Origin: Kiloniellaceae bacterium
GTDB taxonomy: Bacteria; Pseudomonadota; Alphaproteobacteria; Kiloniellales; J153
DNA length: 64,000 nucleotides
Assembly (NCBI GenBank): GCA_021776115.1
Contig: JAJFGN010000069.1
Location: 1-64,000 of the forward strand
Reading direction: 5' to 3'
Below are positions 2,658 through 27,115 of the stretch, piece by piece (position 1 is the first letter of the stretch; each line of letters begins with the position of its first letter). A model generated the notes under the pieces. It did no database searches. It worked only from the letters and a program-made list of their open reading frames with translations, and was not told the DNA's origin. The position numbers and the translations under genes were made by a program.

Positions 2658-3800
2658 TCATCCGGACGCGGTCAGGAACGCCCTGAACCGGCGCGCGACT
2701 TCGTGGGGCTTGACGCTTGGCCGGCCGAGTTCGCTCAGCGAACCCGGCGCGATGCGAAGATGAATAAGCTGGGGCCCAGTGCCTGCCAGGGCTTGATTCA
2801 GGGCCGTCTCAAAGCCTTCCAGGCTATCGCATACCGCCGCCGCCGCGTAACCGCAGGCCAAGGCCACCTGGGCAAAATCGACGTTCGCGGACACCGTGGC
2901 CTGCCCACCGGTCGAATCGTGGGTGCCGTTATCGAGCAGGATGTGAACCAGGTTCTCCGGCGCATAGGCGCCTATGGTCGCCAGGTTGCCAAGCTTCATG
3001 AGAGCGGCGCCGTCGCCATCCAGAACCACGACCGGGCGTTTCACGTTCAAGGCCACGCCCAGGCCCATGGCGCTGGCACACCCCATGGACCCAACCTGAT
3101 AGAGATGCTGCGGCCGGTCGGCGAGGGTGAAGAGCTCGCGCCCGCACTTTCCGGTGGTCGCGATGATCGCCGCCTGTTCCGGCACGACACCGAGCAATCT
3201 CTCCAAGGCGTCGAAGCGGCGCGGCGGCGCGCCATCACCCCGCAGATCCGAGAATTTTCCTCGCGGCCGGGGGGTGCGCGGCGTCTGGTCCAGAGCCTCT
3301 TCCACAACGCTGCCCTTTGCCATGACCAAGGCATAAGGCAAGCCGCTGTCCGCCATGGCGCCGCAAGCCCGGTCCAAAGCCGGCCCGATGTCCGCCTCGG
3401 CGCGCGGAAAGACACCGTGACGCACATCGGCCGCGTCCAGAAAGCGGTGCGTCGCCTGCCCCATCAATTCGTGCTGCGGCTCGTCCTTCAAACCGGGCTG
3501 GCCGCGCCAAGTCACAACCAATAAAGCTGGGATTCTGAACGGCCAGTTGAGTGAGGTGATCGGGTTTATCATATTCCCGAGGCCCGAGTTCTGACACATC
3601 ACGACCGTGCCCCGGCCGGCCAGCCAAGCCCCAGCCGCAATGGCCACCGCCTCGCCCTCGCTCGCCGCACCGACATAGCGCGTCGCCGGATCGCTAATCG
3701 TGCGGTTGATGATCGGTGTTAGGAATGAGCAGGGGACGCCGCAAAAGAAGTCTAGGCCGCGCGCTTGGGCGGCCCCTAGAAAGGCTCCCACTTCAATCAT
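2658..3800 (-). CDS. aepY: Phosphonopyruvate decarboxylase
   Basis: A ThDP-dependent enzyme of 380 residues that converts phosphonopyruvate to phosphonoacetaldehyde, the step that pulls the unfavourable PEP mutase reaction forward. The N-terminal pyrimidine-binding domain has Glu48 in SEGEAV, followed by QNSGLGN (70-76) and KDEPQH (105-110), which are hallmarks of AepY-type enzymes. The C-terminal domain has the ThDP motif beginning GDGAALMKLGN at 262 and closing with DNGTHDSTGGQ. The start lies 30 bases after the PEP mutase gene, so the two are very likely one operon. The length is normal for the family. No aminoethylphosphonate transaminase follows it in this window. Confidence 0.93.
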   Translation of the reverse strand: MIEVGAFLGAAQARGLDFFCGVPCSFLTPIINRTISDPATRYVGAASEGEAVAIAAGAWLAGRGTVVMCQNSGLGNMINPITSLNWPFRIPALLVVTWRGQPGLKDEPQHELMGQATHRFLDAADVRHGVFPRAEADIGPALDRACGAMADSGLPYALVMAKGSVVEEALDQTPRTPRPRGKFSDLRGDGAPPRRFDALERLLGVVPEQAAIIATTGKCGRELFTLADRPQHLYQVGSMGCASAMGLGVALNVKRPVVVLDGDGAALMKLGNLATIGAYAPENLVHILLDNGTHDSTGGQATVSANVDFAQVALACGYAAAAVCDSLEGFETALNQALAGTGPQLIHLRIAPGSLSELGRPSVKPHEVARRFRAFLTASG

Positions 3801-3830
3801 CTCGGCAGAAACTCCGACAGGCCCTACCCC

Positions 3831-5495
3831 CTATATGACGTTGCGCGCCCGGGCCAAGTCGAAAGCGTCGTTGATATCCAGCCAGTGACCCGTGATGTAG
3901 ACGATCCGTGCTGCCATACCCTTGCTTGCCAGGCGAGTGAAGAGATCGGGCAGGTTGGTCTTTTCCAATGTTCCCTCGGCACGCAGGACGTCGACTTCAT
4001 CGCGAAGAGCCTCCAATCCGGCGCGCGAGACCCTGGCCAAGCCGATCCATTCCCCGTGCGCGGACAAATCGTCTTGATCGTTCGTGAAGCGTTCCAGCAT
4101 GACAGACCGCTCGTCGAGGAACTGATCCTCGGCATACGGCCGATCGCATACGACCAGATCGGGGGCATGCTTGCGCCCGCCTTCGGCATGGTCCTGCCAC
4201 TTGGCATCGACCGCCAGCACGATGTCGGCATCGCTCTGCAACAGCAGATCGAGCACATAATCGCGGAATACGATATCGCCGTAGCTGATCACAGCCGGGC
4301 CGCTCACGGCACCGAGCGCGCAGGCGAGCGACGACACTTCGCCGCTGGTCTCAAAGGATTGGTTCACCACTTTCTTGATGTTCGGCAGATCGACGGCTTC
4401 CGGCTTGTACCCACACACCACGGTGACGTCGCGTACTTCGGCATTGTTAAGTGTGCGGACAAGGCGCCGCAGCAAGGGCTCGCCGCGCAGGTCCAGCATG
4501 CACTTTGGCCGCTCCTCGGTCAGCTCCGCCAAGGCGCTGCCCCGCGTGGCGGCCAAGACCACGGCTTGGGTCTCGACCGTTTTCGCACTCAGGTAGCGCC
4601 GCTCCGCCTCCACCATCTCGCTATTTCCAGCCAGCGCGAAGACCTCCTTGAGCGATGCGACCTCGCCCTCGACGTCATTCAGACTTTGCTTGGCAAAAAT
4701 TCGGCCGCTGATCTCACGCATCGCGGATATCGAGGCGCGCAGATTATGATTGGCCCAGATCGCCATCGACAGACCTGCTTCGCGGAAGCGCTCGGTCGGG
4801 GTCGCGTAGTAGGTCGTGGGCACGATGACCAGCGGCGAGCGGCCGGCCCATTCCTTGGCGAAGGCAAGAATTTCGTCGGGCGCCGGTTTCTTGGAATGAA
4901 TCAGGATCGCGTCGGCGCCGGCCTCGTGATAGGCCTCGGCACGGCGCAAGGCCTCGTCCATGCCCCAACCGGCGATCAATGCCTCAATCCGCGCGACGAC
5001 CGAAAAATCGTCATCGAGTTGGCTGTCTTTCCCGGCCCTGATCTTGCCGCAGAACTCCTCAATATCGGCGAGAACCTGCTTGCCATCGATCAATGAATTA
5101 GTCTTGGGGAAAACTTTGTCCTCGATACAGACTGCTGCAATGCCGCGCTGGCAGAGTTTCACCACCAAACGCCGAAAATTGTTGAAATCGCCGTAGCCGG
5201 TGTCGCCGTCCAGCATGATGGGGACCGAAGTCGCGTCGGACATGAATTCCAGCGTTTCGATAACTTGCGTCCATGACGCCTCGTTGCGGTCGCGCACGCC
5301 AAGCGCCGTCGCCATGGAAAGGCCCGAGGCCCAGATTCCCTTAAACCCCGCCTCCTCGACGATTTTGGCGGAAAGCCCATTATGGGCCTCCATCAGGAAT
5401 TCCAATTCGCTCGACGTGAGAAGCGCACGGAATTTGGATGCTTTGGAATTCTGGGACGATTCTGGGACTGGATAGACCAACGCAGGGTGCGGCAC
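3831..5495 (-). CDS. aepX: Phosphoenolpyruvate mutase fused to a nucleotidyltransferase domain
   Basis: A 554-residue two-domain protein. Residues about 20-300 are a PEP mutase of the isocitrate lyase superfamily. They carry the Mg-binding LDGDTGYG (Asp96, Asp98) and the diagnostic [10 protein letters not shown] (125-134), which separates C-P bond-forming PEP mutases from lyases. Residues about 309-554 are a sugar-nucleotidyltransferase-type domain, with [18 protein letters not shown] as the nucleotide and phosphate loop and SYGD as a probable metal site. Fused or neighbouring cytidylyltransferases in phosphonate clusters activate a small phosphonate as a CMP ester for transfer to a lipid or glycan, so that is the likely role here. 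The start is a GTG with AAAGG about 10 bases upstream. It is the first gene of the aepX-aepY unit. Confidence 0.92.
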
Positions 5496-16544: not shown

Positions 16545-17495
16545 TCAGGCCGATTCCGCGCCGTAGTAAAGCGTGACGACATGTTGCGCCTCGGCAAAGA
16601 AGAGCCAACGCTCGATCAACATGCCGAGCATGGACACAGCCGCCGCCAGGAATGCCAAAATTGCGGCGGCCCGCCCTTCCTCCATGGCGACCACGCTCAA
16701 GCAGAGAAATAGAGGAACAATAAACCCTGCGAGCAAGGCGTAGACGCGCAGCTTGTGGGCATGCTTGCGGGCGATCTGGAAGCCCATCTCACGCTGCACA
16801 TAATTGGCCTGGGTGTGCGCCGTCTCCCATTGCCGCACAGTACCCAGCCGAGCCAAGCCGGTCGCATGCCCGGGGGTGCGCAGGGCTTTACCGGTATCGA
16901 TGCTGTGCCAGTACCCGAATTTCGCCACCATCCCAAGCGACAGAACCGATACGCACAGCCAGGTAAACAAGCTCCTGCCCTCGCCGAACGCAAGCACCAA
17001 GGCGTTGAACCAAAGGGCGCCGGTCGCGATGGCCAAGAGAAGGTAGATCGGGGTAACCCAGTCGTTATGCCATTGGCTGATAGTTCTCAGCGATTGATAG
17101 ATCATCCCAGTGCAGTAGACGGTCAGAACCGCACCGACGGCCGCTGCGACGCCAAACAGCGCCCAGACGCCGCTCGTATCTCCCATAGTTATCCATCCGA
17201 TCGCGAACAGCCCGGCCGGCACATAAGTGATCAGCGCCAACACGCCTTCGCGCGACAACCAGGAACTGCGCCATTGCGTCACCGCCCGCCAGGCGCGTTC
17301 CGGATGGCCCAAATGAAAAGCCGAGGACATCAATCCGAAAGTCACCAGGCCGAATGAAAAGCCAAAGCCGAGCAGACCCATCACGGGATCCGAGGATATG
17401 ACCCCGGCGACGCCAAACAAGCAGAGCAAGATCATCAGGCCGTATCCCGCGCCGGAGAGCGTGGTAAAGAGCAGCACGGAATAGGCGGGATGCAT
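16545..17495 (-). CDS. soeC: Membrane anchor subunit of sulfite dehydrogenase (DmsC/NrfD-like)
   Basis: A 316-residue protein with about eight hydrophobic helices and short loops, in the DmsC anchor family. FHLGHPERAW in the second loop and the paired WFFAEAQHVV-type tail are familiar elements of these anchors. The subunit would pass electrons between the iron-sulfur subunit and membrane quinone. It starts 14 bases after soeB in the order A-B-C, which is the SoeABC arrangement described from purple sulfur bacteria and roseobacters. DmsABC has the same plan, so the identification relies mainly on the molybdenum subunit. Confidence 0.82.
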   Translation of the reverse strand: MHPAYSVLLFTTLSGAGYGLMILLCLFGVAGVISSDPVMGLLGFGFSFGLVTFGLMSSAFHLGHPERAWRAVTQWRSSWLSREGVLALITYVPAGLFAIGWITMGDTSGVWALFGVAAAVGAVLTVYCTGMIYQSLRTISQWHNDWVTPIYLLLAIATGALWFNALVLAFGEGRSLFTWLCVSVLSLGMVAKFGYWHSIDTGKALRTPGHATGLARLGTVRQWETAHTQANYVQREMGFQIARKHAHKLRVYALLAGFIVPLFLCLSVVAMEEGRAAAILAFLAAAVSMLGMLIERWLFFAEAQHVVTLYYGAESA

Positions 17496-17509: not shown

Positions 17510-18268
17510 CTAACGAGACAACGCACGGTCTAACCAGCGGAATACGCGATCCCCCGCCGCACCGGGTCCGGTGTCGGCCGGCTTCAGCGCAGCCAGCTCA
17601 GTATCCGCGCCAACACGCCGTTCGCGCGGCGGCAGGTATTTGTTGACCGGGCGATATCCCAGACCGGGCATCAGATCGAAACCGCCGCGTTCACGCACCA
17701 GGGTCGAGACCGCGCTTTCCGGATCGCCCAAATCGCCGAAATGGCGCGCGCCGGTCGGGCAGGCTCTCACACAAGCCGGTTGGCGGTCTTCCGGTTCCAG
17801 GTTCTCATTGTAGATTCGATCGACACACAGCGTGCATTTCTTCATCACACCGTCGTCTTCGTCGTATTCCCGCGCCCCGTAAGGACAAGCCCAGGAACAC
17901 AGCTTACACCCGATACAGGTATCCGGATTGACCAGGACGATACCATCCTCGGCCCGCTTGTAGGACGCACCGGTCGGACAAACGGTCACGCACTCTGGCT
18001 CCTCGCAATGCAGACAAGAGCGCGGAAAGTTAACCGTCATGCCGCCAGAGCCGTGTGTGCCGGGGCTGACTTCGTAGCTATGAATTCGGTTTAGCCATAC
18101 GCCGGTAGCCTCTGCTCCATAAGGATTTTGGTCAGTCAGGGGCGCTGTATGCCCGGTCGTGTTCCATTCCTTGCAGCTGACCGCGCAGGCCTGACAGCCG
18201 ACGCAGGTATCCAGGTCAATGACCAAGCCCAGTTTCTTGCCGCTCGACGATTCTGGCAGGCTGGTCAT
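17510..18268 (-). CDS. soeB: Four-cluster ferredoxin subunit of sulfite dehydrogenase
   Basis: A 252-residue electron-transfer subunit with four cysteine groups. Group I is Cys22, 25, 28, 32. Group II is Cys85, 88, 93, 97. Group III is Cys118, 121, 124, 128. Group IV is Cys145, 148, 166, 170. Each contributes to a [4Fe-4S] cluster, the DmsB/NrfC pattern. All four sets are complete, so none of the clusters should be a [3Fe-4S] variant. No Tat signal is visible, which agrees with a cytoplasm-facing SoeABC complex. The ATG overlaps the soeA stop as ATGA, indicating translational coupling. The KYLPPRERRV stretch near 210 follows the last cluster. Confidence 0.88.
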   Translation of the reverse strand: MTSLPESSSGKKLGLVIDLDTCVGCQACAVSCKEWNTTGHTAPLTDQNPYGAEATGVWLNRIHSYEVSPGTHGSGGMTVNFPRSCLHCEEPECVTVCPTGASYKRAEDGIVLVNPDTCIGCKLCSWACPYGAREYDEDDGVMKKCTLCVDRIYNENLEPEDRQPACVRACPTGARHFGDLGDPESAVSTLVRERGGFDLMPGLGYRPVNKYLPPRERRVGADTELAALKPADTGPGAAGDRVFRWLDRALSR

Positions 18269-21174
18269 GTCCGGCCCCTACGCCCGCCCATGCCCTTGGG
18301 CTTGTCCAGAAACTGTTCGCCAAAGCGTGAAATCGCCGGCGGCGGCTCGAGCCCGGGCAAACGATCCAAGGCGGCCAATGCCGGCGCGCTACGCTGTGCA
18401 TCGGCAGGGCCAACCCTCTCGACCTTGACGCGCAGATCGTACCAGGCCGCCTGTCCGGTTACCGGATCGCTGTTGGAGTAGCGGTATCCACCCTCGCGTT
18501 CGGGCAAGAGTTCGGAAATTAGATGGTTGAGCAGGAAACCTTTGGTCGCCTCCGGTGAGTCCGGGGCCAGGTTCCAGGCCCCAGCCCGTTTTCCGATCGC
18601 GTTCCAGGTCCACACGGTGTTCGCGTTAACCCCGTCCATAAGCCGAACTTGACCCCGGACCTTGCCGTGGGCGCTGGTGACCCAGACCCAATCGTCCTCT
18701 CCAATGCCGAGCCGCGTTGCCGTCTCCCGGTTCATGTACAGGCGATTGGCCCCATGAATCTGGCGCAGCCAAGCGTTCTGCGACCCCCAGGAGTGGTACA
18801 TGGCCATAGGCCGCTGAGTGACCGCGTGCAGTGGGAAAGCTTCGGTCTCAATGCCGGCGTCTTCAAGCGGTGCGTACCAAATCGGCAACGGATCGAAATA
18901 GGTTTCGACCCGCGCGCGGTCACGCTCCGGCGGTTGACGCTCGCCGTGGCCCCGCGCGGCCAGGCGGAATTTCTGTAAGGCCTCGGAATAGATCTGCATG
19001 ACGATCTGATCGGCATGGCCAATCAGGCCGAAAGAAACCGCCCAGTCCAGATATTCCTTGTTGGCGTGCCTAAAGTACCGCTGCGACTCCGGCATTTTCA
19101 TGTGCCAGAAGCACCCGTTTTCGATGTATTTCTCTAGCTGTTTCGGGTTCGGCGCGCCCCGGCCGTGGCTGTCGCCCGCTGCGCCGCGCCAGCCCGCCAG
19201 GGGACCAATACCGGGCGCACGTTCGTGGTTGACCAAGTAGTCCGCGTATCCGCCGGGATACTTCGCGCCGCCATCCTCGGCGGTGAATCCGGGCAGTCCA
19301 ATGCGCGCGCCGAGGTCGATCAGAACGTCCTGAAACGGCCGGACGTTCCGGTCCGGATCGACCACCGGCTGACGGATCGAATCGCCGGGCCCATCGGCCT
19401 CGCAGATGGGCCGGTCCAGCAAGGAAATGCAGTCCCAGCGCTCCAGGTACGTGGTATCGGGCAGGATCAGATCGGCATAGGGGATCATCTCCGAAAAAAA
19501 GGCGTCGGAATAGATGATCTTGGGGATCGCGTACTCGCCCGTTTCGGGGTCCATCTCAGTCAAGGACTTCAGCACGCTGGACACGCTCATCGACGAATTC
19601 CAGCTCATGTTCGCCATGAACATGAACAAAACGTCGATGGCGTAAGGATCGCGCTTTGCGGCGTTGGTGATGACCATGTGCATCATGCCGTGGGCGGCGA
19701 TCGGCGCCTCCCAAGAATACGCTTTGTCGATCCGCCGCGGCGTGCCGTCGGGATCGATCAACAAGTCTTCCGGTCCGGTGGGGAAACCTAGCGGCGGCCC
19801 GCCCAAGGGCTTATCGGGACCAATCTGATCTTCGTGGCCGGCGGGCTTAAGTCCGGGTGGGATAGGTTTGGGAAACGGCGGTTTGTAGCGGAACCCCCCA
19901 GGACAATCGATGCTGCCGAGCAAAAGCTGAAGGACGTGGATCGCCCGGCAGGTATGGAAGCCATTAGAGTGGGCCGAGATGCCGCGCATGGCATGCATCG
20001 CGACCGGCCGCCCGATCATCTTGTCGTGCCGCCGCCCCGCCCAGTCGGTCCAGGGGATGTCGAGAACGACCTCTTCCTCAAAGGCCGCCTGGGCCAACTC
20101 TGCCGCGATGCGCTTGATCGTTGCGGCCGGAATGCCAACCCGGTCTGCCACAGCCTCGGGCGCATACCGCGAGTCGGAATAACGTTCGACCAGATGATTG
20201 AATGACGGGACCGCCTTGCGCCCATCGGGCAAGGTGTACGCGCCGCTTAGGGCCGGCGTGATATCCGGAAGCGCGGCATCCACGGGCCCATCGCTCTCGC
20301 GGTCCCACGCCAGCGGATGTCCCTCCGCGTCGCGCGCGAACAAGCCATCGTCGGCCGCGCCCGGGTCGTCGATTACCAGCCAAGGCGCGTTGGTGTAACG
20401 CACCAGGTAGTCCAGATCGATCTTGCCCGCGTGCAGCAGCTCATGGATCAAGGCGAACACGAGCAGGCCGTCGGTGCCGGGACGGATGCCGATCCATTCG
20501 TCGGCGATCGAGGAATAGCCGCTGCGCACCGGGTTGACCGAAACGAACTTCGCGCCGCGCTGCTTGAGCTTACCCAATCCGATCTTGATCGGGTTGGAGT
20601 CGTGGTCCTCGGCAACGCCGAACATCAGGAAATAGCGGGTATGGCTCCAATCGGGCTCGCCAAACTCCCAGAACGAGCCACCGATGGTGTACAGCCCGGC
20701 GGCCGCCATGTTGACCGAGCAAAAGCCGCCGTGGGCGGCATAATTGGGAGTGCCGAATTGGCTCGCCCACCAGCCGGTCAAGGCTTGGCTTTGATCGCGG
20801 CCGGTAAAGAAGGCCAGCTTGCGCGGATCGCGCGCGCGCACCTCACCCAGCCAACCGGCGGCGGTCGAAAGCGCCTCGTCCCAGGAAACTTCCTTGAATT
20901 CGCCGGAACCGCGCGGACCGACCCGCATCAAGGGGTTGCGCAGGCGCGCCGGGGAATAGTGCTGCATGATTCCGGCCGAGCCCTTGGCACAGAGGACGCC
21001 CTTATTGACCGGGTGGTCGCGGTTGCCCTCGATGTAGCGGACCGTGCCGTCCTTCAGGTAGACCTTAATACCGCAGCGGCAGGCGCACATATAGCAGGTG
21101 GTGCACTTGACCTCGTCCGCGATATTGGGCGAGGTCTCGACCTTCGGCTCGCCAGGCGCGGGGCCCTCGGCCAT
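18265..21174 (-). CDS. soeA: SoeA-type sulfite dehydrogenase, molybdopterin catalytic subunit
   Basis: A 969-residue bis-MGD molybdoenzyme of the DMSO reductase superfamily. The N-terminal [4Fe-4S] site is Cys27, Cys30, Cys34 and Cys62 within CYMCACRCGIKVYL and GVLCAKG. There is no twin-arginine signal, so it should face the cytoplasm, as SoeA does and unlike DmsA or periplasmic PhsA/PsrA. Its length and the CTTCYMCACRCG opening fit the SoeA group, which oxidises sulfite to sulfate and feeds electrons to quinone. The ATG at 21174 has AGGAGAG about 9 bases upstream and is chosen over 21255. It is the first gene of soeABC. Other cytoplasmic molybdoenzymes of this branch cannot be fully excluded. 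Confidence 0.82.
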   Translation of the reverse strand: MAEGPAPGEPKVETSPNIADEVKCTTCYMCACRCGIKVYLKDGTVRYIEGNRDHPVNKGVLCAKGSAGIMQHYSPARLRNPLMRVGPRGSGEFKEVSWDEALSTAAGWLGEVRARDPRKLAFFTGRDQSQALTGWWASQFGTPNYAAHGGFCSVNMAAAGLYTIGGSFWEFGEPDWSHTRYFLMFGVAEDHDSNPIKIGLGKLKQRGAKFVSVNPVRSGYSSIADEWIGIRPGTDGLLVFALIHELLHAGKIDLDYLVRYTNAPWLVIDDPGAADDGLFARDAEGHPLAWDRESDGPVDAALPDITPALSGAYTLPDGRKAVPSFNHLVERYSDSRYAPEAVADRVGIPAATIKRIAAELAQAAFEEEVVLDIPWTDWAGRRHDKMIGRPVAMHAMRGISAHSNGFHTCRAIHVLQLLLGSIDCPGGFRYKPPFPKPIPPGLKPAGHEDQIGPDKPLGGPPLGFPTGPEDLLIDPDGTPRRIDKAYSWEAPIAAHGMMHMVITNAAKRDPYAIDVLFMFMANMSWNSSMSVSSVLKSLTEMDPETGEYAIPKIIYSDAFFSEMIPYADLILPDTTYLERWDCISLLDRPICEADGPGDSIRQPVVDPDRNVRPFQDVLIDLGARIGLPGFTAEDGGAKYPGGYADYLVNHERAPGIGPLAGWRGAAGDSHGRGAPNPKQLEKYIENGCFWHMKMPESQRYFRHANKEYLDWAVSFGLIGHADQIVMQIYSEALQKFRLAARGHGERQPPERDRARVETYFDPLPIWYAPLEDAGIETEAFPLHAVTQRPMAMYHSWGSQNAWLRQIHGANRLYMNRETATRLGIGEDDWVWVTSAHGKVRGQVRLMDGVNANTVWTWNAIGKRAGAWNLAPDSPEATKGFLLNHLISELLPEREGGYRYSNSDPVTGQAAWYDLRVKVERVGPADAQRSAPALAALDRLPGLEPPPAISRFGEQFLDKPKGMGGRRGRT

Positions 21175-21326
21175 GCTTGCACTCTCCTGCTGTGTCAGAA
21201 AAACAGATAGGCGTTGAAACGAATCGAATTGCGGCTCCGCAACGTCAATATGCACGACCTATCATGGCCTTAACAACTGTCGAGGCCTGTTGGCCCTAAC
21301 GAATCCCGCGTGTTGCCGCCATATCG

Positions 21327-22259
21327 CTAACCCGCGCCGGTCACCAGCGCCAACCAAGGCAGCATGGTCGCGATCGCCGCCAGGGTGGTTACCGTGATCA
21401 GGCGCGCCATGAGATTGGCGTCGCCGCCGAGTTGCGCGGTCATGATGTAAGACGAGGTTGCCGCCGGAACCGACGCACAGACGATGCCAACCAGCAAGGC
21501 TTGGCCGTCAAGCGCCAAGACCGTAGCCAAGGCCTGGAACGCCGCCGGCAAAGCAATTAACTTTAGCGCGCAGGTAGCGGCCACAATCCGGCCGTCGGCG
21601 AACAGCCTTCGTGGCTCCAGCGCCGCCCCGACCGAGAGCAAGGCCACACCGACGGCCGCCGAGCCGACGAACGAAAGGGGCGCCCCGATCAACGCCGGCA
21701 CCGGGGCGCCGGAAACCGTCCAGGTGACCCCAACCAGGCAAGCCAATATTAGGGGGTTCCCTGCAATCGACCGCAGGAGGCGCGCGGGGGTCGACACGCC
21801 GCCCCCGGTATGGTCGCCATAGCGAACCAGGACCACGACCGAGAGGACGTTCACCAGGACAATCATGAAGGCGAGCGCCAAGCTCGCCAACGCGACCCCG
21901 GGGGGGCCGATCAGGGTGCCGCTCACGCCTAAAACGACATAGGTGTTCATGCGGATCGAACCCTGGAACATGCTGGCGAAGGCGGGGCCCAGCAGTCCCA
22001 GCGGCCGGCGCAAGATAAACGCCATCCCCGATGTCACGACGATCGCGCCCAGAGTCGCGGCGATCAGGCGCCAGGCCGCGCCGGGCGAGATGTCCGCCGT
22101 CGCCAGCGAATGGACCAGCAAGGCCGGAAACAGCACAAAATACGCCAAGCGCTCCAGCCCGGTCCAAACCACCCGGTCCGGCAGCAGGAAACGCCGCAAG
22201 GCGGTGCCAAGCAGAATGGTCACGAAGACCGACAGCAAGCTTTCGACGATGGGAGTCAC
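21327..22259 (-). CDS. AEC-family transporter (auxin efflux carrier/malate permease-like)
   Basis: A 310-residue membrane protein with about ten hydrophobic segments in two halves, beginning PIVESLLSVFVTILLGTALR. The second half contains ILACLVGVTWTVSGAPVP and a VCASVPAATSSYIMTAQLGG segment. The ASVPAATSSY block is the conserved signature near the ninth helix in AEC carriers. Bacterial members include malate and malonate permeases (MleP, MdcF). The gene follows the fumarase beta subunit gene after 15 bases on the same strand, which supports a dicarboxylate substrate such as malate or fumarate. This specificity is inferred from context only. Confidence 0.85.
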   Translation of the reverse strand: MTPIVESLLSVFVTILLGTALRRFLLPDRVVWTGLERLAYFVLFPALLVHSLATADISPGAAWRLIAATLGAIVVTSGMAFILRRPLGLLGPAFASMFQGSIRMNTYVVLGVSGTLIGPPGVALASLALAFMIVLVNVLSVVVLVRYGDHTGGGVSTPARLLRSIAGNPLILACLVGVTWTVSGAPVPALIGAPLSFVGSAAVGVALLSVGAALEPRRLFADGRIVAATCALKLIALPAAFQALATVLALDGQALLVGIVCASVPAATSSYIMTAQLGGDANLMARLITVTTLAAIATMLPWLALVTGAG

Positions 22260-22274
22260 GGCGTCAGCGGGCGC

Positions 22275-22955
22275 TCAAATCAGCTCGTCCTTGCGCTCGT
22301 CGGTTTCGCCGTAGCGGCGCAGGGCCGGTGCTTTCAGGCCTTCGTAGAGGGCGTCCAGATTCTTCGCGACCTCGGCATTCGCGCGCTCGAACAGGCTATT
22401 ACCTTGCAAATCGCTTTCGACCAGGAACGGACCGAAATTCTCGACATCGAAGACCCATAGGGCTTGAGCGATTCCCAGGTCCTCCAACCAATGGGCGGCG
22501 GCGACATTTTTGACGCCCCGGCCCAGCAGCGCGCCGGTCCCATAACCGACCGTGGTCAAATAGATCGCGCCGTTGGGCACGAAGTACTTGCGGTAAGCCT
22601 CGCTGGTCATGCCGCCCTTGCCGATGATGACCTTGCACCCGGACACCTCGAACCAGCGCTCCAGCCATTTCGCGAAACGGAAGGAGGCGGTCGCGGTCAC
22701 CGCGCCGACCTTGAAAGAGCCGTCGTCCTGTACGGCGGCGGCGGGTGAGCAATGGAAGTTCACGTTCCCCACCTCCGCCGGATCGACCGGCAGGTCGGCG
22801 CCCTCGTCGATCACGCGCTGGTAGACCCCTTCGCGACCGGTGTAGACCCGCCCGTCGAGGTAGACGACATCGCCGAGCCGCAGGCCCGCGATGGCCTCCG
22901 CGCTGACCGGCGTGGTCAGGCGGACTGTGCGGAGCTTGTCCGGCTTGTCTCCCAT
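22275..22955 (-). CDS. Class I fumarate hydratase/tartrate dehydratase, beta subunit
   Basis: A 226-residue beta subunit of the two-chain class I hydro-lyases (TtdB-like swivelling domain). It opens with RLTTPVSAEAIAGLRLGD and DVVYLDGRVYTGREG. A VGNVNFHCSPAAAV segment and GKGGMTSEAY with the following YLTTVGYGTGALL complete the fold. With the alpha subunit it would interconvert malate and fumarate, or act on tartrate or a methylated analogue. The ATG at 22955 has GGGAG upstream and lies inside the alpha gene, giving a 40-base overlap typical of tight coupling. The longer frame to 23123 is rejected because those residues only shadow the alpha subunit. Confidence 0.88.
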   Translation of the reverse strand: MGDKPDKLRTVRLTTPVSAEAIAGLRLGDVVYLDGRVYTGREGVYQRVIDEGADLPVDPAEVGNVNFHCSPAAAVQDDGSFKVGAVTATASFRFAKWLERWFEVSGCKVIIGKGGMTSEAYRKYFVPNGAIYLTTVGYGTGALLGRGVKNVAAAHWLEDLGIAQALWVFDVENFGPFLVESDLQGNSLFERANAEVAKNLDALYEGLKAPALRRYGETDERKDELI

Positions 22956-23881
22956 TCGACCGTCTCCCGGCGCATGTAGGGGGTGAACCACTGCGGATCG
23001 TGGCGGTATTCGATTCGGCCGTCGGCGTGAACCCGCGCGGTGGCGCGGCGCGAGGACAGGCAAAACGCATGCACGCTCATCGGCATGCCGCCGGTATGGG
23101 TATAGCCGACCTCGATGTGGCAATCGACCACCATGGAGCTGCCAACGAAACCCATGGCGCCCATGCCGATCTTGTTGCCCAGGTCTTTCAGCTCCAACTC
23201 CAGTTCCGCGACGCGCGGGTCGGGGTTGCGGTTCCCCACGGTGCGCAGGCAGGCCGCCTGCTTGCCCAAGGTCATGCAGATGTCCTTGGAGCCGCCGAGG
23301 CCGATGCCGACGATGGCTGGCTGACAGGCCAAACCGCGCTTGCCGAAGGCGATCAGGGTATCGAGGGTGAAGCGCTTGATGCCGTCGATGCCGTCGCCGG
23401 GAAACAACATGCGGTAGTCGGTCCCAAAGAGACCACCCTTATGTACGGTGGTCAGCTCGATCCAGTCGGCCTCGGGCTCGAAGCTGTATTCGATCTCCGG
23501 CGCATTGATGCCGACGTTGTTGTTGTGGTCGGTGCGCCACAGCGGATGCACCCGGTTTGGGCGCAGCGGCACGTCGTGCGTCGCCTTGGCTGTCGCGCGG
23601 CGCAGAGTTGCTTCCAGCGCGACCGGTCCGCCCTCGATACCCGCCTCGTTGCCGTATTTCACATACCAGCGCGGGATGCCGGTATCGGCGCACATGGCGC
23701 GGCGGTCTTCCTTGGCGGCCTCATAGTTCTCCAGCATGGCCCGAAGCACGAAGGCCGAAAGATCGCCCTCCTCCTGCTCGGCCATCGCCTTGATCCCGGT
23801 AAGGTAGTCGTCCGGTATCTCGATCGCCGCCTTGGCCATGAGCTGCTCGGCCACGCCTTGCAATGTTTGGGTCGGGATCAT
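22916..23881 (-). CDS. Class I fumarate hydratase/tartrate dehydratase, alpha subunit
   Basis: A 321-residue alpha subunit carrying the catalytic [4Fe-4S] cluster. The ligands are Cys64 in MCADTGIP, Cys186 in LACQPAIVG and Cys254 in VDCHIE. The second is followed by IGLGGSKD and the third by GYTHTGGMP, as in TtdA and archaeal or clostridial two-chain fumarases. It partners the overlapping beta gene downstream. Neighbouring fumarate reductase-like genes favour fumarate as the substrate over tartrate, but the two cannot be separated by sequence alone. A second, unrelated-length class I fumarase of 544 residues is encoded at 31255-32889. Confidence 0.9.
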   Translation of the reverse strand: MIPTQTLQGVAEQLMAKAAIEIPDDYLTGIKAMAEQEEGDLSAFVLRAMLENYEAAKEDRRAMCADTGIPRWYVKYGNEAGIEGGPVALEATLRRATAKATHDVPLRPNRVHPLWRTDHNNNVGINAPEIEYSFEPEADWIELTTVHKGGLFGTDYRMLFPGDGIDGIKRFTLDTLIAFGKRGLACQPAIVGIGLGGSKDICMTLGKQAACLRTVGNRNPDPRVAELELELKDLGNKIGMGAMGFVGSSMVVDCHIEVGYTHTGGMPMSVHAFCLSSRRATARVHADGRIEYRHDPQWFTPYMRRETVEWETSRTSSAQSA

Positions 23882-23929
23882 TGACTAGCTCTCCAGCAAA
23901 ACAACTTGCTCCAGTGGATTCACAATTAA

Positions 23930-23962
23930 GTCCTCATGCTGAGCCTGTCGAAGCATGAGGAC
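23930..23962. repeat. REP-like palindrome, 11-bp arms with 11-base loop
   Basis: GTCCTCATGCT at 23930-23940 is the exact reverse complement of AGCATGAGGAC at 23952-23962, around the loop GAGCCTGTCGA. From memory, this CTTCGACAGGCTCAGCATGAGG-type element is scattered through many alphaproteobacterial genomes. Here it sits between the flavoprotein and fumarase alpha genes, where a transcript hairpin could protect or split the mRNA. There is no T-tract on the minus strand, so it is not a classical terminator. Confidence 0.75.
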
Positions 23963-23969
23963 AAGGTCG

Positions 23970-25715
23970 TTACTGCACGGAAATCGCCTCCGGCGCGCCT
24001 GCTTCATCGTCAATAAGGGACTCGCCCGGCTTCACGATCGTGAAATCGACCGGCGCCTGTTCGACCGAGATTGACTCTCCTACCCGGCTTACCAGCGTGA
24101 ACGAAGAGGACTCAAGATCGCCGGCCTCCGGGAAATCCTCGCGGTAGTGGGCGCCCCGCGAGTTCTCGCGGGCCAGAGCGGCACGGGCAATGGCCTCGCT
24201 CACCTCGACCAGGCTGCGCAGGTTCAGCCAGTCATGCCAGGTCAGGTTAAAGACACGGTCCCGATCGGCCAGGCCGGTCTTCAGGAGTTCGGCCTCCAAG
24301 TCGGCCAGGCGCGCGATGCCGCGTTGCAAGCCTTCCGCCGTGCGCATCACCCCGACATCCTCCCACATCACGTCCAGCAGGCGCTCGCGAAGCGCGTTGA
24401 GATCGCCCGCCGGTTTGTCAAAAGGATGAAGCGCCCGCGCGATCTCGGCCTCGATCAGGGCTTCGTCGGGTTCGCGCAAGTTTTCCTTGGCCGCGAAGTC
24501 CGCCATGGCCTCGCCCGCGATCCCGCCGAACACGGTGGAGTTGGCAACCCCGTTACCGCCCAGGCGGTTGGCCCCGTGCACACCGCCAGCGTCCTCCCCG
24601 GCGACGAACAGGCCGGGCAATTCGGTCAAGGTCTCGGTATCGCAGATAAGTCCGCCCATGAGGTAATGAGCCGTCGGCACAACCTCGACCAGCCCGCCGG
24701 CCAGATCGAAGCCGCAGTCGGCGCAACGCTCGACCATGCCCTTGAAGCCACGGCGCACCTTGTCGGGTCCGAGGTGACTCATCTGGATGAAGAGGCCGCC
24801 GTTTTCCGTCGTGCGGCCCTTGCGCATCTCGGCGTACATGGCGCGGCTGACCACGTCGCGCGTGGCCCGTTCGCCCTGCGGGTCGTAGTCGAGCATGAAG
24901 CGCCGATGCTCCGCGTCCAAAAGGTAGCCGCCCGCGCCCCGCAGGCCTTCCTCCAACACCGTCCCGGTCATGCGCGTCTCGGTCCCGGCAAGCAAGCCCG
25001 TGGGGTGGAACTGAACCATTTCCATATCGCGCAACGGCAGGCCAATTCTCAAGGCCATCGCCAAGCCATCCATGCTCTTGTCGCCGGAGGGCGTGTGATA
25101 GCGGTACATGGTCGGCCCGCCCCCGGTCGCCAGCAGCACCGCCTTGGCGCGCACGAAGCGGAATACGCCGCTACGCATATCGACCAGGAGGACACCAGCC
25201 AGCGCCGCGCCGTCCGCCGTGGGGATCAGGGCCAAGGCCCGGTGCTCCTCCATCCGCGTGACCGGACGAGCCCAGACCTGTTCCATCAGGCGGTTGATGA
25301 TCTCGATCCCGGTCAGGTCGCCCTTGTGCACGGTGCGGTCGAAGCTTTGCCCGGCGAAAGCCTTGCCGTGCAGGGTGCCGTCGGCCTTACGGTCGAAGAA
25401 GCATCCGACCTCGTTCTCCAACTCGCGCACCCGTTCGACCGCCGTTTGGCACAAGCGCCACGCCAGATCCTGATTGGGCAGCCACTTGCCGCCGACGATG
25501 GTGTCCATGAAATGCCGCTCGACCGAATCGCCGGGCAACAGCGCGACATTGTAGCCGCCTTGAACCATGCGGGTGCAGCCCGACTTGCCGATCAGGCCCT
25601 TGACCGCGAGTGTGACCTTGAGCCCCGGGTTGGTCTGGCCGGCATGCAGCGCGGCGAACAACCCGGCGCCGCCACTGCCCAGAATCAAGATATCAGTGTC
25701 GTGATACTCGAGCAT
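23970..25715 (-). CDS. Succinate dehydrogenase/fumarate reductase-like flavoprotein subunit
   Basis: A 581-residue FAD subunit. The dinucleotide loop is ILGSGGAGL (11-19). Substrate-site elements are MVQFHPTGLL, the PTAHYLMGG segment and GANRLGGNGVANSTVFGG, all as in SdhA/FrdA. The RSHT motif whose His binds FAD covalently in Sdh/Frd is replaced by KSGCT (44-48), so FAD is probably non-covalent, as in L-aspartate oxidase, or bound in another way. The adjacent iron-sulfur and two membrane genes argue against NadB. ATG 25715 lies 4 bases after the preceding membrane-subunit stop and fits the family start. Reaction direction, succinate oxidation or fumarate reduction, is open. Confidence 0.9.
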   Translation of the reverse strand: MLEYHDTDILILGSGGAGLFAALHAGQTNPGLKVTLAVKGLIGKSGCTRMVQGGYNVALLPGDSVERHFMDTIVGGKWLPNQDLAWRLCQTAVERVRELENEVGCFFDRKADGTLHGKAFAGQSFDRTVHKGDLTGIEIINRLMEQVWARPVTRMEEHRALALIPTADGAALAGVLLVDMRSGVFRFVRAKAVLLATGGGPTMYRYHTPSGDKSMDGLAMALRIGLPLRDMEMVQFHPTGLLAGTETRMTGTVLEEGLRGAGGYLLDAEHRRFMLDYDPQGERATRDVVSRAMYAEMRKGRTTENGGLFIQMSHLGPDKVRRGFKGMVERCADCGFDLAGGLVEVVPTAHYLMGGLICDTETLTELPGLFVAGEDAGGVHGANRLGGNGVANSTVFGGIAGEAMADFAAKENLREPDEALIEAEIARALHPFDKPAGDLNALRERLLDVMWEDVGVMRTAEGLQRGIARLADLEAELLKTGLADRDRVFNLTWHDWLNLRSLVEVSEAIARAALARENSRGAHYREDFPEAGDLESSSFTLVSRVGESISVEQAPVDFTIVKPGESLIDDEAGAPEAISVQ

Positions 25716-25719
25716 GGCT

Positions 25720-26061
25720 TCATATTGCATTGAAAAGAAAAGCGAATGCGATGACGGCGGATGCGCTTCCCGCAACCGCGGCCAGGGTCGCCTGTCCGTC
25801 CCGCCAAGGCAGAAATTCCAGTGCCAGCAGGCGCAGCCCACCGAGCAAATGAAGTGCGAGGAGAAAGACCAAGCCCATCTCGGCCAGCTTCACGAGGCCA
25901 AAATCGCTCCAGGCCAAAACGCCGTCAAAGACCGCTTCGCCGTTCAGGGCGCTGCCCAGAACCAGGAAATGCAACGGCAGAAAAACGGCTAAGGCCAAGC
26001 CCGAGAGCCGATGCAATGCAAAGGCCCACCACAAGGGTTGATGGCGGTGCGGCCGGATCAT
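25720..26061 (-). CDS. Second membrane anchor subunit of the Sdh/Frd-like complex
   Basis: A 113-residue protein with three hydrophobic helices (about 13-32, 47-69 and 88-108). ALHRLSGLALAVFLPLHF near 14-31 has the H-R-x-S-G pattern and histidines found in SdhC/SdhD heme- and quinone-binding anchors. Its ATG overlaps the stop of the other anchor gene as ATGA, and the flavoprotein gene follows after 4 bases. The alternative start at 26151 would run far into the other anchor gene and is rejected. Assignment rests on topology, size and operon position as much as sequence. Confidence 0.8.
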   Translation of the reverse strand: MIRPHRHQPLWWAFALHRLSGLALAVFLPLHFLVLGSALNGEAVFDGVLAWSDFGLVKLAEMGLVFLLALHLLGGLRLLALEFLPWRDGQATLAAVAGSASAVIAFAFLFNAI

Positions 26062-26393
26062 AGCACAACCGCCGCGACGGCGCGGGCGCCAAGCGTCATT
26101 AACAGCAGCGCGGCACCGTACGTCAAAGCGTCCAGCCGCGCCCCGCGCCAAGCCAGATTCTCCGCCGCGATCGACCGCAGCCCAATAGCGGCATGGATCG
26201 CCGCCGCGATCACGAAGGCACTATAAAATCCCGCCCAAACGAAGCTGCCGCGCGTGCGCGAGAGGATCTCGGCCGCCGAGAGGCCATCTTGAATGGCATA
26301 GACGATCAATCCCAGGTGGACCAGAACCAAGGGCGCCAGGACAGCGGCGCTGAGACGCTGCAATACATATAGTTGGGCGGAAGTCAGATTCAT
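26058..26393 (-). CDS. First membrane anchor subunit of the Sdh/Frd-like complex
   Basis: A 111-residue membrane protein with three helices (about 15-36, 50-70 and 88-108). LQRLSAAVLAPLVLVHLGLIVYA includes an R-x-S pair and a histidine like those at the quinone and heme sites of SdhC-type anchors. IHAAIGLRSI in the second helix supplies another possible heme ligand. It is joined by 4-base ATGA overlaps to the iron-sulfur gene before it and the second anchor gene after it, so the four subunits are translationally linked. Heme content cannot be determined from sequence. Confidence 0.8.
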   Translation of the reverse strand: MNLTSAQLYVLQRLSAAVLAPLVLVHLGLIVYAIQDGLSAAEILSRTRGSFVWAGFYSAFVIAAAIHAAIGLRSIAAENLAWRGARLDALTYGAALLLMTLGARAVAAVVL

Positions 26394-27115
26394 ACTTCCC
26401 CTCGTAGCGCGGCCATAAAGACGGCGCGCTTCAGGCCCGCAATCGAGGCGGTCGGGTTGAGCGACATGGGGCAATGGGTCGTGCAGCCCTGTTGGCTGTG
26501 GCAATTGTGGCAGCCGGCCTCCCCGGCAACAGCGGCCAGCCGCTCGGCCTGAGCCGCATCGCGGGTATCGTTCTGTAGTGTCCAGACACGGTTGAGGGCG
26601 GCCGGCCCCAGGTAATCCGGTTTCCAGGCGACGACATCGCAGGCCGCATAGCAAACCGCGCAGTTGATACACTCGATACCGGCATCGACGGCCTGCCGCG
26701 CCGGCGTTTCGGGCGCTATGCACTCGATATCATCGTACCGGGTCGCCCGCCCCTCGAAGCGGCCGCGCGCATCCCGCCATTTCTCGAAAAAGACCGTCAT
26801 GTCGCAGGCCAGATCCTTGACGATCGGCAGGTTGCGGAGCGGCTCGATCGTCAAGCGGCTGTCTTGCGCGACCTTTGCGACATGGGTGCGGCAGGTCCAG
26901 CGCGGCTTGCCGTTGACCGTCATGGCGCAGGACCCACACATCCCGACCCGGCAGGCGAAGCGGTAGGCCAACCCCGGATCGCGATGACGCTGAACCCAGG
27001 TGACGACGTCCAGCACGGTCTGATTGGCGCGTTGAGGCGCCTCGAATTCGATCAAGCGGCCGCCCGCACCGCCCTTCCAAATCCGCACCGAGAGATTGCC
27101 GCCGTCAGCGCCCAT
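26390..27115 (-). CDS. Iron-sulfur subunit of the Sdh/Frd-like complex
   Basis: A 241-residue electron-transfer subunit. Cys55, 60, 63 and 75 (CRVGMCGSC and later WTC) bind the [2Fe-2S] cluster in a plant-ferredoxin fold. CINCAVCYAAC supplies Cys149, 152, 155 and 159, and CHNC with GCTTHCP supplies Cys202, 205, 211 and 215, for the [4Fe-4S] and [3Fe-4S] or second [4Fe-4S] clusters. The extra Cys202 and the CD instead of CP after Cys159 differ from standard SdhB. ATG 27115 follows GGAAGG by about 11 bases; a GTG at 27151 has no site. It is first in the unit that continues through anchors, flavoprotein, fumarase and permease. Confidence 0.88.
   Translation of the reverse strand: MGADGGNLSVRIWKGGAGGRLIEFEAPQRANQTVLDVVTWVQRHRDPGLAYRFACRVGMCGSCAMTVNGKPRWTCRTHVAKVAQDSRLTIEPLRNLPIVKDLACDMTVFFEKWRDARGRFEGRATRYDDIECIAPETPARQAVDAGIECINCAVCYAACDVVAWKPDYLGPAALNRVWTLQNDTRDAAQAERLAAVAGEAGCHNCHSQQGCTTHCPMSLNPTASIAGLKRAVFMAALRGEV

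Follow-up and report, generated by a model that had tools for sequence, protein, structure and literature searches.

A stretch of 64,000 nucleotides at the start of contig JAJFGN010000069.1 of a Kiloniellaceae bacterium (assembly GCA_021776115.1), hereafter the window, carries on its minus strand between positions 21327 and 27115 seven genes, six of which form a core made up of a paralogous complex II and a class I fumarase-like hydro-lyase. We consider it likely that this core has been re-targeted to sulfonates and converts 3-sulfopropionate via 3-sulfoacrylate to 3-sulfolactate; the locus is most likely the sulfonate counterpart of the succinate–fumarate–malate segment. An earlier note on this DNA had read the seven genes as a dicarboxylate module acting on malate, fumarate and succinate. 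The locus is real and conserved, and the substrate proposed there is probably wrong.

Homotaurine is one source of 3-sulfopropionate, and another is sulfoquinovose, a sulfosugar abundant in plants, when bacteria break it down; the cluster offers candidate genes, with signature residues and in culturable bacteria, for the degradation of this sulfonate. If the sulfonate reading is right, complex II and class I fumarase would have been jointly re-targeted to a sulfonate, many annotations as "fumarate reductase" or "fumarate hydratase" in marine and soil bacteria would be wrong, and the operon would supply missing genes for the breakdown of natural organosulfur compounds and the release of their sulfur.

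A conserved core distinct from the canonical succinate dehydrogenase

Profile searches with Pfam and NCBIfam models place all seven genes in the families that had been named for them, and the co-operonic structure is likewise supported. In order of transcription (the higher coordinate being the refined start in each case) they encode an SdhB/FrdB-like iron–sulfur subunit (26390–27115; PF13085, and TIGR00384 at 184 bits against a cut-off of 88), which is the first gene of the conserved order; an SdhD-like membrane anchor (26058–26393; PF01127, with TIGR02968 below its cut-off); an SdhC-like anchor of the cytochrome b type (25720–26061; PF01127, with TIGR02970 at 50.0 bits against a cut-off of 52.3); an SdhA/FrdA-like flavoprotein of a separate clade, the proposed 3-sulfopropionate dehydrogenase (23970–25715; PF00890, PF02910); the alpha chain of a class I fumarase-like hydro-lyase, the proposed 3-sulfoacrylate hydratase (22916–23881; PF05681, TIGR00722); its beta chain (22275–22955; PF05683); and an AEC-family carrier, the proposed importer of the substrate (21327–22259; PF03547 at 55 bits). 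The many 4-base overlaps described previously come down to two, B/D (where the ATG of sdhD at 26393 overlaps the sdhB stop) and D/C; the remaining junctions are a 4-bp gap (C/A), an 88-bp gap (A/alpha), a 40-bp overlap (alpha/beta) and a 15-bp gap (beta/AEC).

A homologue scan across 84,980 species, with one genome per species, yielded at least 80 loci, most of them 69–88% identical; the best 80 were taken, and further matches exist. Together with eight annotated plasmid loci and the window they make a set of 89, in which the order B-D-C-A-alpha-beta is kept in 67 loci, far beyond what chance would produce, and B-D-C-alpha-beta-A in four more, the remainder being mostly cut by contig ends. Among the loci examined, the window and two close relatives (L003, L004) are the only ones with the AEC gene next to the core, and other core loci bear Tct, TRAP, ABC or DctA-type transporters instead, which suggests that the carrier is exchangeable, as would be expected of an uptake step. 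The conserved unit is the six-gene core, and the full set of seven is confined to three relatives. In a sample of 289 alphaproteobacterial genomes the flavoprotein is present in 24 at 64–100% identity, separated by a clean gap from the best other matches at about 35–39%. A second subtype (L059, L064, L077 and L093) combines the core flavoprotein with a fumarase pair that is shorter, closer to the canonical type and encoded ahead of sdhA, and a SuyA/SuyB pair lies near three of these four loci.

The earlier note had conceded that, with no other Sdh in the genome and constitutive aerobic expression, the complex would simply be the succinate dehydrogenase of the tricarboxylic acid (TCA) cycle. 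The genome of the window (4.3 Mb, 98.7% complete) encodes a canonical sdhCDAB elsewhere (contig C79), whose flavoprotein has the SHT motif for binding flavin adenine dinucleotide (FAD) and is 37% identical to that of the core. The core is hence not the sole or canonical TCA succinate dehydrogenase of the organism.

Substrate sites and the sulfonate genes around the core

With complex II (SdhABCD, FrdABCD) the core shares the four-subunit build, the families of the flavoprotein and the iron–sulfur protein, a two-anchor membrane part and, probably, coupling to quinone. Domain matches and residue conservation recover the Arg, His and Glu residues of the FAD subunit, the three-cluster iron–sulfur subunit and the membrane anchors, the equivalents of the catalytic residues His232, Glu245, Arg287, His355 and Arg390 of Escherichia coli FrdA being kept in all 81 core flavoproteins. 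It differs from complex II in forming a separate clade whose flavoprotein is less than 40% identical to the canonical enzymes, in its order B-D-C-A, in sharing an operon with a hydro-lyase, in its sulfonate context and in two replacements found in 81/81 flavoproteins: the position of FrdA Thr244, which contacts a substrate carboxylate, is Glu, and the His for covalent attachment of FAD (FrdA His44) is gone, the sequence there reading GK[C/S]GCTRMVQGG.

A similar picture emerges for the hydro-lyase. It resembles the two-chain class I fumarases and L(+)-tartrate dehydratases (TtdAB, Methanocaldococcus jannaschii-type) in its alpha/beta make-up, and the three Cys ligands of the 4Fe–4S cluster and the catalytic Asp, Thr, Arg and Lys are kept; it departs from them in the motifs around these residues (CQDTG, GPTT.xRM, ARDxAH), which are altered in more than 90% of core members. 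The Gln beside the first cluster Cys has become Gly or Ala in 70 of 73 hydro-lyases, TTxxRM has become ATASFRF, ARDxAH has become REGVY, and the glycine loop is altered. Scores lie under every equivalog cut-off, both for the alpha chain (fumarase 203 against 276, tartrate dehydratase 157 against 365) and for the beta chain (125 against 269 and 119 against 264, respectively). Since the catalytic residues are kept and those of the substrate sites are changed, the enzymes look catalytically intact with altered specificity.

The genomic setting was compared for 81 core loci and, as controls, 40 neighbourhoods of canonical sdhA, using ten sulfonate and sulfite markers. At least one marker accompanies 41 of the 81 core loci and none of the 40 controls (p 6e-10, Fisher), and exporters of the TauE family alone account for 30/81 against 0/40 (p 6e-7, Fisher). 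The neighbours in related loci comprise sulfate exporters, sulfite dehydrogenases, SuyAB, and SlcC/ComC-like and CuyA-like proteins. Some islands bring the entire pathway together. On a Methylobacterium oryzae plasmid some 18 kb encode the core along with TauE, a UxaA pair of the SuyA/SuyB type, an SlcC-like and a ComC-like Ldh protein, a sulfate exporter and SorA, which scores 685 bits against a cut-off of 600; on pTAV3 of Paracoccus versutus about 36 kb hold the core with YeiH, TauE, Ldh, a hydroxyacid dehydrogenase, TctABC, HpsN-like genes and a UxaA pair, as well as a sulfite oxidase and an exporter for sulfate; and on plasmids of Pseudomonas MPC6 and M. nodulans the core is found with sulfite oxidases and sulfate exporters. 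Downstream of the core in Pseudorhizobium NT-26 are a succinate-semialdehyde dehydrogenase-like enzyme and a protein whose match to sulfolactaldehyde 3-reductase falls just short of the cut-off. The large UxaA chain is taken as SuyB because it is 85% identical to one beside hpsN/hpsO in Cupriavidus pinatubonensis, an organism that degrades 2,3-dihydroxypropane-1-sulfonate (DHPS) through SuyAB (PMC6278857).

The association extends to whole genomes. In the alphaproteobacterial sample, orthologues of SuyB (sulfolactate lyase) occur in 15 of the 24 core-positive and 12 of the 265 core-negative genomes (p 4e-12). The corresponding figures are 10/24 against 29/265 for Xsc, 6/24 against 21/265 for CuyA, and 20/24 against 48/265 for any of the three. 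In a second core-positive set, consisting of 49 genomes of another collection and the window's own, 48 of 50 have SuyB, Xsc or CuyA. Given the distinct clade, the changed substrate sites and the position of the loci within organosulfonate islands, malate, fumarate and succinate are not supported as substrates, and their sulfonate isosteres are the most likely ones.

The proposed route and its alternatives

In the route we propose, the membrane-bound Sdh-like complex would oxidise 3-sulfopropionate, an isostere of succinate, to 3-sulfoacrylate, an isostere of fumarate, passing electrons to quinone, and the iron–sulfur hydro-lyase would hydrate this to 3-sulfolactate, an isostere of malate. In most carriers SuyAB, or sulfolactate dehydrogenases together with Xsc or CuyA, would then release sulfite. 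This would either leave the cell through TauE or be oxidised by SorA or SoxC, with subsequent export of sulfate; in this organism the AEC carrier would move the substrate, and oxidation of the sulfite would fall to the adjacent SoeABC. Feeder enzymes of the succinate-semialdehyde and 4-hydroxybutyrate types, seen in some loci, may correspond isosterically to enzymes for 3-sulfopropanal and 3-hydroxypropanesulfonate. The pairing of Sdh-like and fumarase-like enzymes fits because the known neighbours act on sulfolactate, whose dehydration and then reduction lead back to 3-sulfopropionate. What we infer is which substrate is used and in which direction, that water is added at C2, and what the AEC carrier and SoeABC do.

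The core resembles the described catabolism of sulfolactate (SlcHFG–SlcC/ComC–SuyAB, with Xsc and CuyA branches, in Paracoccus, Chromohalobacter and Roseovarius) in occupying the same islands, in co-occurring with it, and in its Tct transporters, TauE/SuyZ-type exporters and sulfite oxidation; it stands outside that pathway as described and would extend it upstream from 3-sulfopropionate. The sulfonate route was deduced from the neighbourhoods before its intermediates were met in the literature: the degradation of homotaurine by Roseovarius nubinhibens ISM passes through 3-sulfopropionate, sulfoacrylate and sulfolactate according to a thesis, as relayed by a 2024 paper which describes 3-sulfopropionate degradation by bacteria as otherwise unreported (PMC11489063). 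This strain carries the core (L052), and the predicted intermediates are the same, the difference being that the genes are unnamed in the account given of the thesis. The outline of the pathway is therefore already known, so far as that account goes, and the assignment of genes is new within the literature searched, where no paper was found that names the core genes for a 3-sulfopropionate route. A further parallel might be drawn with a Paracoccus grown on sulfofucose, via sulfolactate, in which a "fumarate and tartrate" cluster that also contains a TauE homologue had nine of its proteins induced and was read as linked to the Krebs cycle (PMC12421959); by gene make-up rather than by sequence, that cluster appears to match the core loci of Paracoccus.

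Several observations weigh against the proposed route. No marker lies within reach in 28 of the 66 core loci of at least 10 kb, the TauE- and YeiH-type families are broad, and the Fisher tests ignore the relatedness of genomes, which inflates their p-values, though the effect is large. The linkages of SoeABC and AEC come from a single lineage and are not independent. The change from Thr244 to Glu indicates altered specificity and by itself does not point to a sulfonate, and the loss of the FAD-linking His may argue for the opposite direction. A search of the window's own genome found no SuyB, no CuyA above the cut-off (the best CuyA-like match has 351 bits against 450), no clear ComC and no orthologue of a thiamine diphosphate (ThDP)-dependent enzyme that recurs beside the core elsewhere, and the Xsc it does encode belongs to a taurine-type cluster (G000:C24:20404-22131, in L102). 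These absences could reflect a gap in the assembly, another exit for sulfolactate, or hydration at the sulfonate-bearing carbon with direct loss of sulfite.

Under the last of these, the divergent hydro-lyase of the majority variant would add water at the carbon bearing the sulfonate, giving the bisulfite adduct of malonate semialdehyde and from it sulfite and malonate semialdehyde. We regard this as unlikely. It would amount to direct desulfonation of a fumarase type without SuyAB, Xsc or CuyA, and would explain both the window's genome, with its core and SoeABC and no SuyB, and the operon of Pseudomonas sp. MPC6. In the latter a CoA-acylating (methyl)malonate-semialdehyde dehydrogenase follows directly after the core (L095:15409-16899; TIGR01722 at 695 bits, cut-off 448.5), hinting at an exit through malonate semialdehyde. 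Linkage to MmsA was dropped as general evidence, as the screen also matches 7 of the 40 controls, its threshold catching other aldehyde dehydrogenases.

The same enzymes might also run the other way, with sulfolactate dehydrated to sulfoacrylate and the Frd-like complex reducing this with quinol to 3-sulfopropionate as an anaerobic electron sink. Loss of the FAD-linking His in 81/81 flavoproteins would suit such a direction, for in E. coli FrdA this loss spares the reduction of fumarate and not the oxidation of succinate; sulfolactate genes are nearby as well. Export of sulfonates is within the range of TauE-type proteins, one of which is described as the probable exporter of 3-sulfopropionate in E. 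gilvus (PMC11489063). We nevertheless hold it to be quite improbable, as the carriers are mostly aerobic proteobacteria, net desulfonation accords with the uptake systems, sulfite dehydrogenases and exporters of sulfate that adjoin the core, and the pathway of R. nubinhibens, as relayed, proceeds from 3-sulfopropionate to sulfolactate.

Another sulfonated acid would demand no different chemistry: sulfosuccinate could be oxidised, and the resulting sulfofumarate hydrated, with oxaloacetate and sulfite as the end products; genes for sulfite oxidation are adjacent, and there would be no need of the SuyAB that the window's genome is without. Sulfosuccinate was suggested at first by the SoeABC neighbour and was demoted since the neighbours elsewhere are sulfolactate genes; the neighbouring and co-occurring enzymes belong to sulfolactate and C3 sulfonates, the route relayed for a strain carrying the core runs via 3-sulfopropionate, and no paper on catabolic genes for sulfosuccinate was found, which leaves it with little credence.

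An ordinary dicarboxylate module, with malate imported by AEC, a hydro-lyase acting as fumarase or tartrate dehydratase and a complex serving as a second Frd or Sdh, draws on homology at the level of families, on the AEC carriers known for malate and malonate, on Tct and DctA transporters of related loci that may also carry dicarboxylates and on neighbours whose best matches, 4-hydroxybutyrate or succinate-semialdehyde dehydrogenase, would also fit a C4 series, but is very improbable in the face of equivalog scores far under the cut-offs, conserved changes at the substrate sites, core loci surrounded by genes for sulfonates and sulfite, and the co-occurrence of SuyB.

SoeABC-like genes and other neighbours

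Directly downstream of the AEC gene lie three more minus-strand genes, absent from the earlier account, that look like those of a SoeABC sulfite dehydrogenase. They encode a SoeA-like molybdopterin catalytic subunit (18265–21255; PF04879, PF00384, PF01568), whose gene begins 71–152 bp past AEC on the same strand, an alternative ATG lying at 21174; a SoeB-like ferredoxin-type iron–sulfur subunit (17510–18268; PF13247), overlapping the soeA-like gene by 4 bases; and a SoeC-like membrane anchor of the DmsC family (16545–17495; PF04976 at 57.8 bits, cut-off 22.3). SoeABC is a sulfite:quinone oxidoreductase with a catalytic part presumed to lie on the cytoplasmic side (PMC8076601), and SoeA and SoeB of Ruegeria pomeroyi are annotated as cytosolic (PMC4334477). 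As in SoeABC of Allochromatium vinosum, Aquifex aeolicus and R. pomeroyi, domain matches point to a catalytic subunit with molybdenum bis-pyranopterin guanine dinucleotide (Mo-bisPGD) and one Fe4S4 cluster, a ferredoxin-type subunit and a DmsC/NrfD-like anchor, and a cytoplasmic orientation is suggested as no twin-arginine (Tat) signal was seen on the SoeA-like protein when its sequence was judged by eye. The assignment is based on architecture, and among the loci examined the genes adjoin the core in three only, the window and two near relatives; this linkage was dropped as general evidence, all three coming from one lineage.

The recurring ThDP-dependent enzyme (e.g., L010:5656-7281), which is about 541 aa long and resembles acetolactate synthase and oxalyl-CoA decarboxylase, stands beside the core in 18 of 81 loci and in none of the 40 controls. 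It is a candidate sulfopyruvate decarboxylase; that it is Xsc or one of the sulfopyruvate decarboxylases already known was unsupported, with all models far below their cut-offs. A small NIPSNAP protein, often adjoining a sulfate exporter, shows a like distribution (8/81 against 0/40; e.g., L010:13555-13890), and a catalytic protein of aconitase X lies near the core in L009, L017, L023, L045 and L100, mostly with a DUF126-type partner. Four gammaproteobacterial loci (L014, L020, L021, L053) encode an iron-containing alcohol dehydrogenase, the best model for which is 4-hydroxybutyrate dehydrogenase, below its cut-off, and a glutamine synthetase-like protein, and these possibly feed 3-hydroxypropanesulfonate or homotaurine into the route.

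Judged from sequence, the neighbours of xsc in the window's genome are a TauE-like transporter gene, an acetate kinase-like gene and a gene for a GntR/MocR-like regulator. Within the window, on the minus strand at 2658–5495, a 554-aa protein that joins a phosphoenolpyruvate mutase to a MobA-like nucleotidyltransferase domain adjoins a phosphonopyruvate decarboxylase-like ThDP enzyme, a pair with a probable role in phosphonate biosynthesis.

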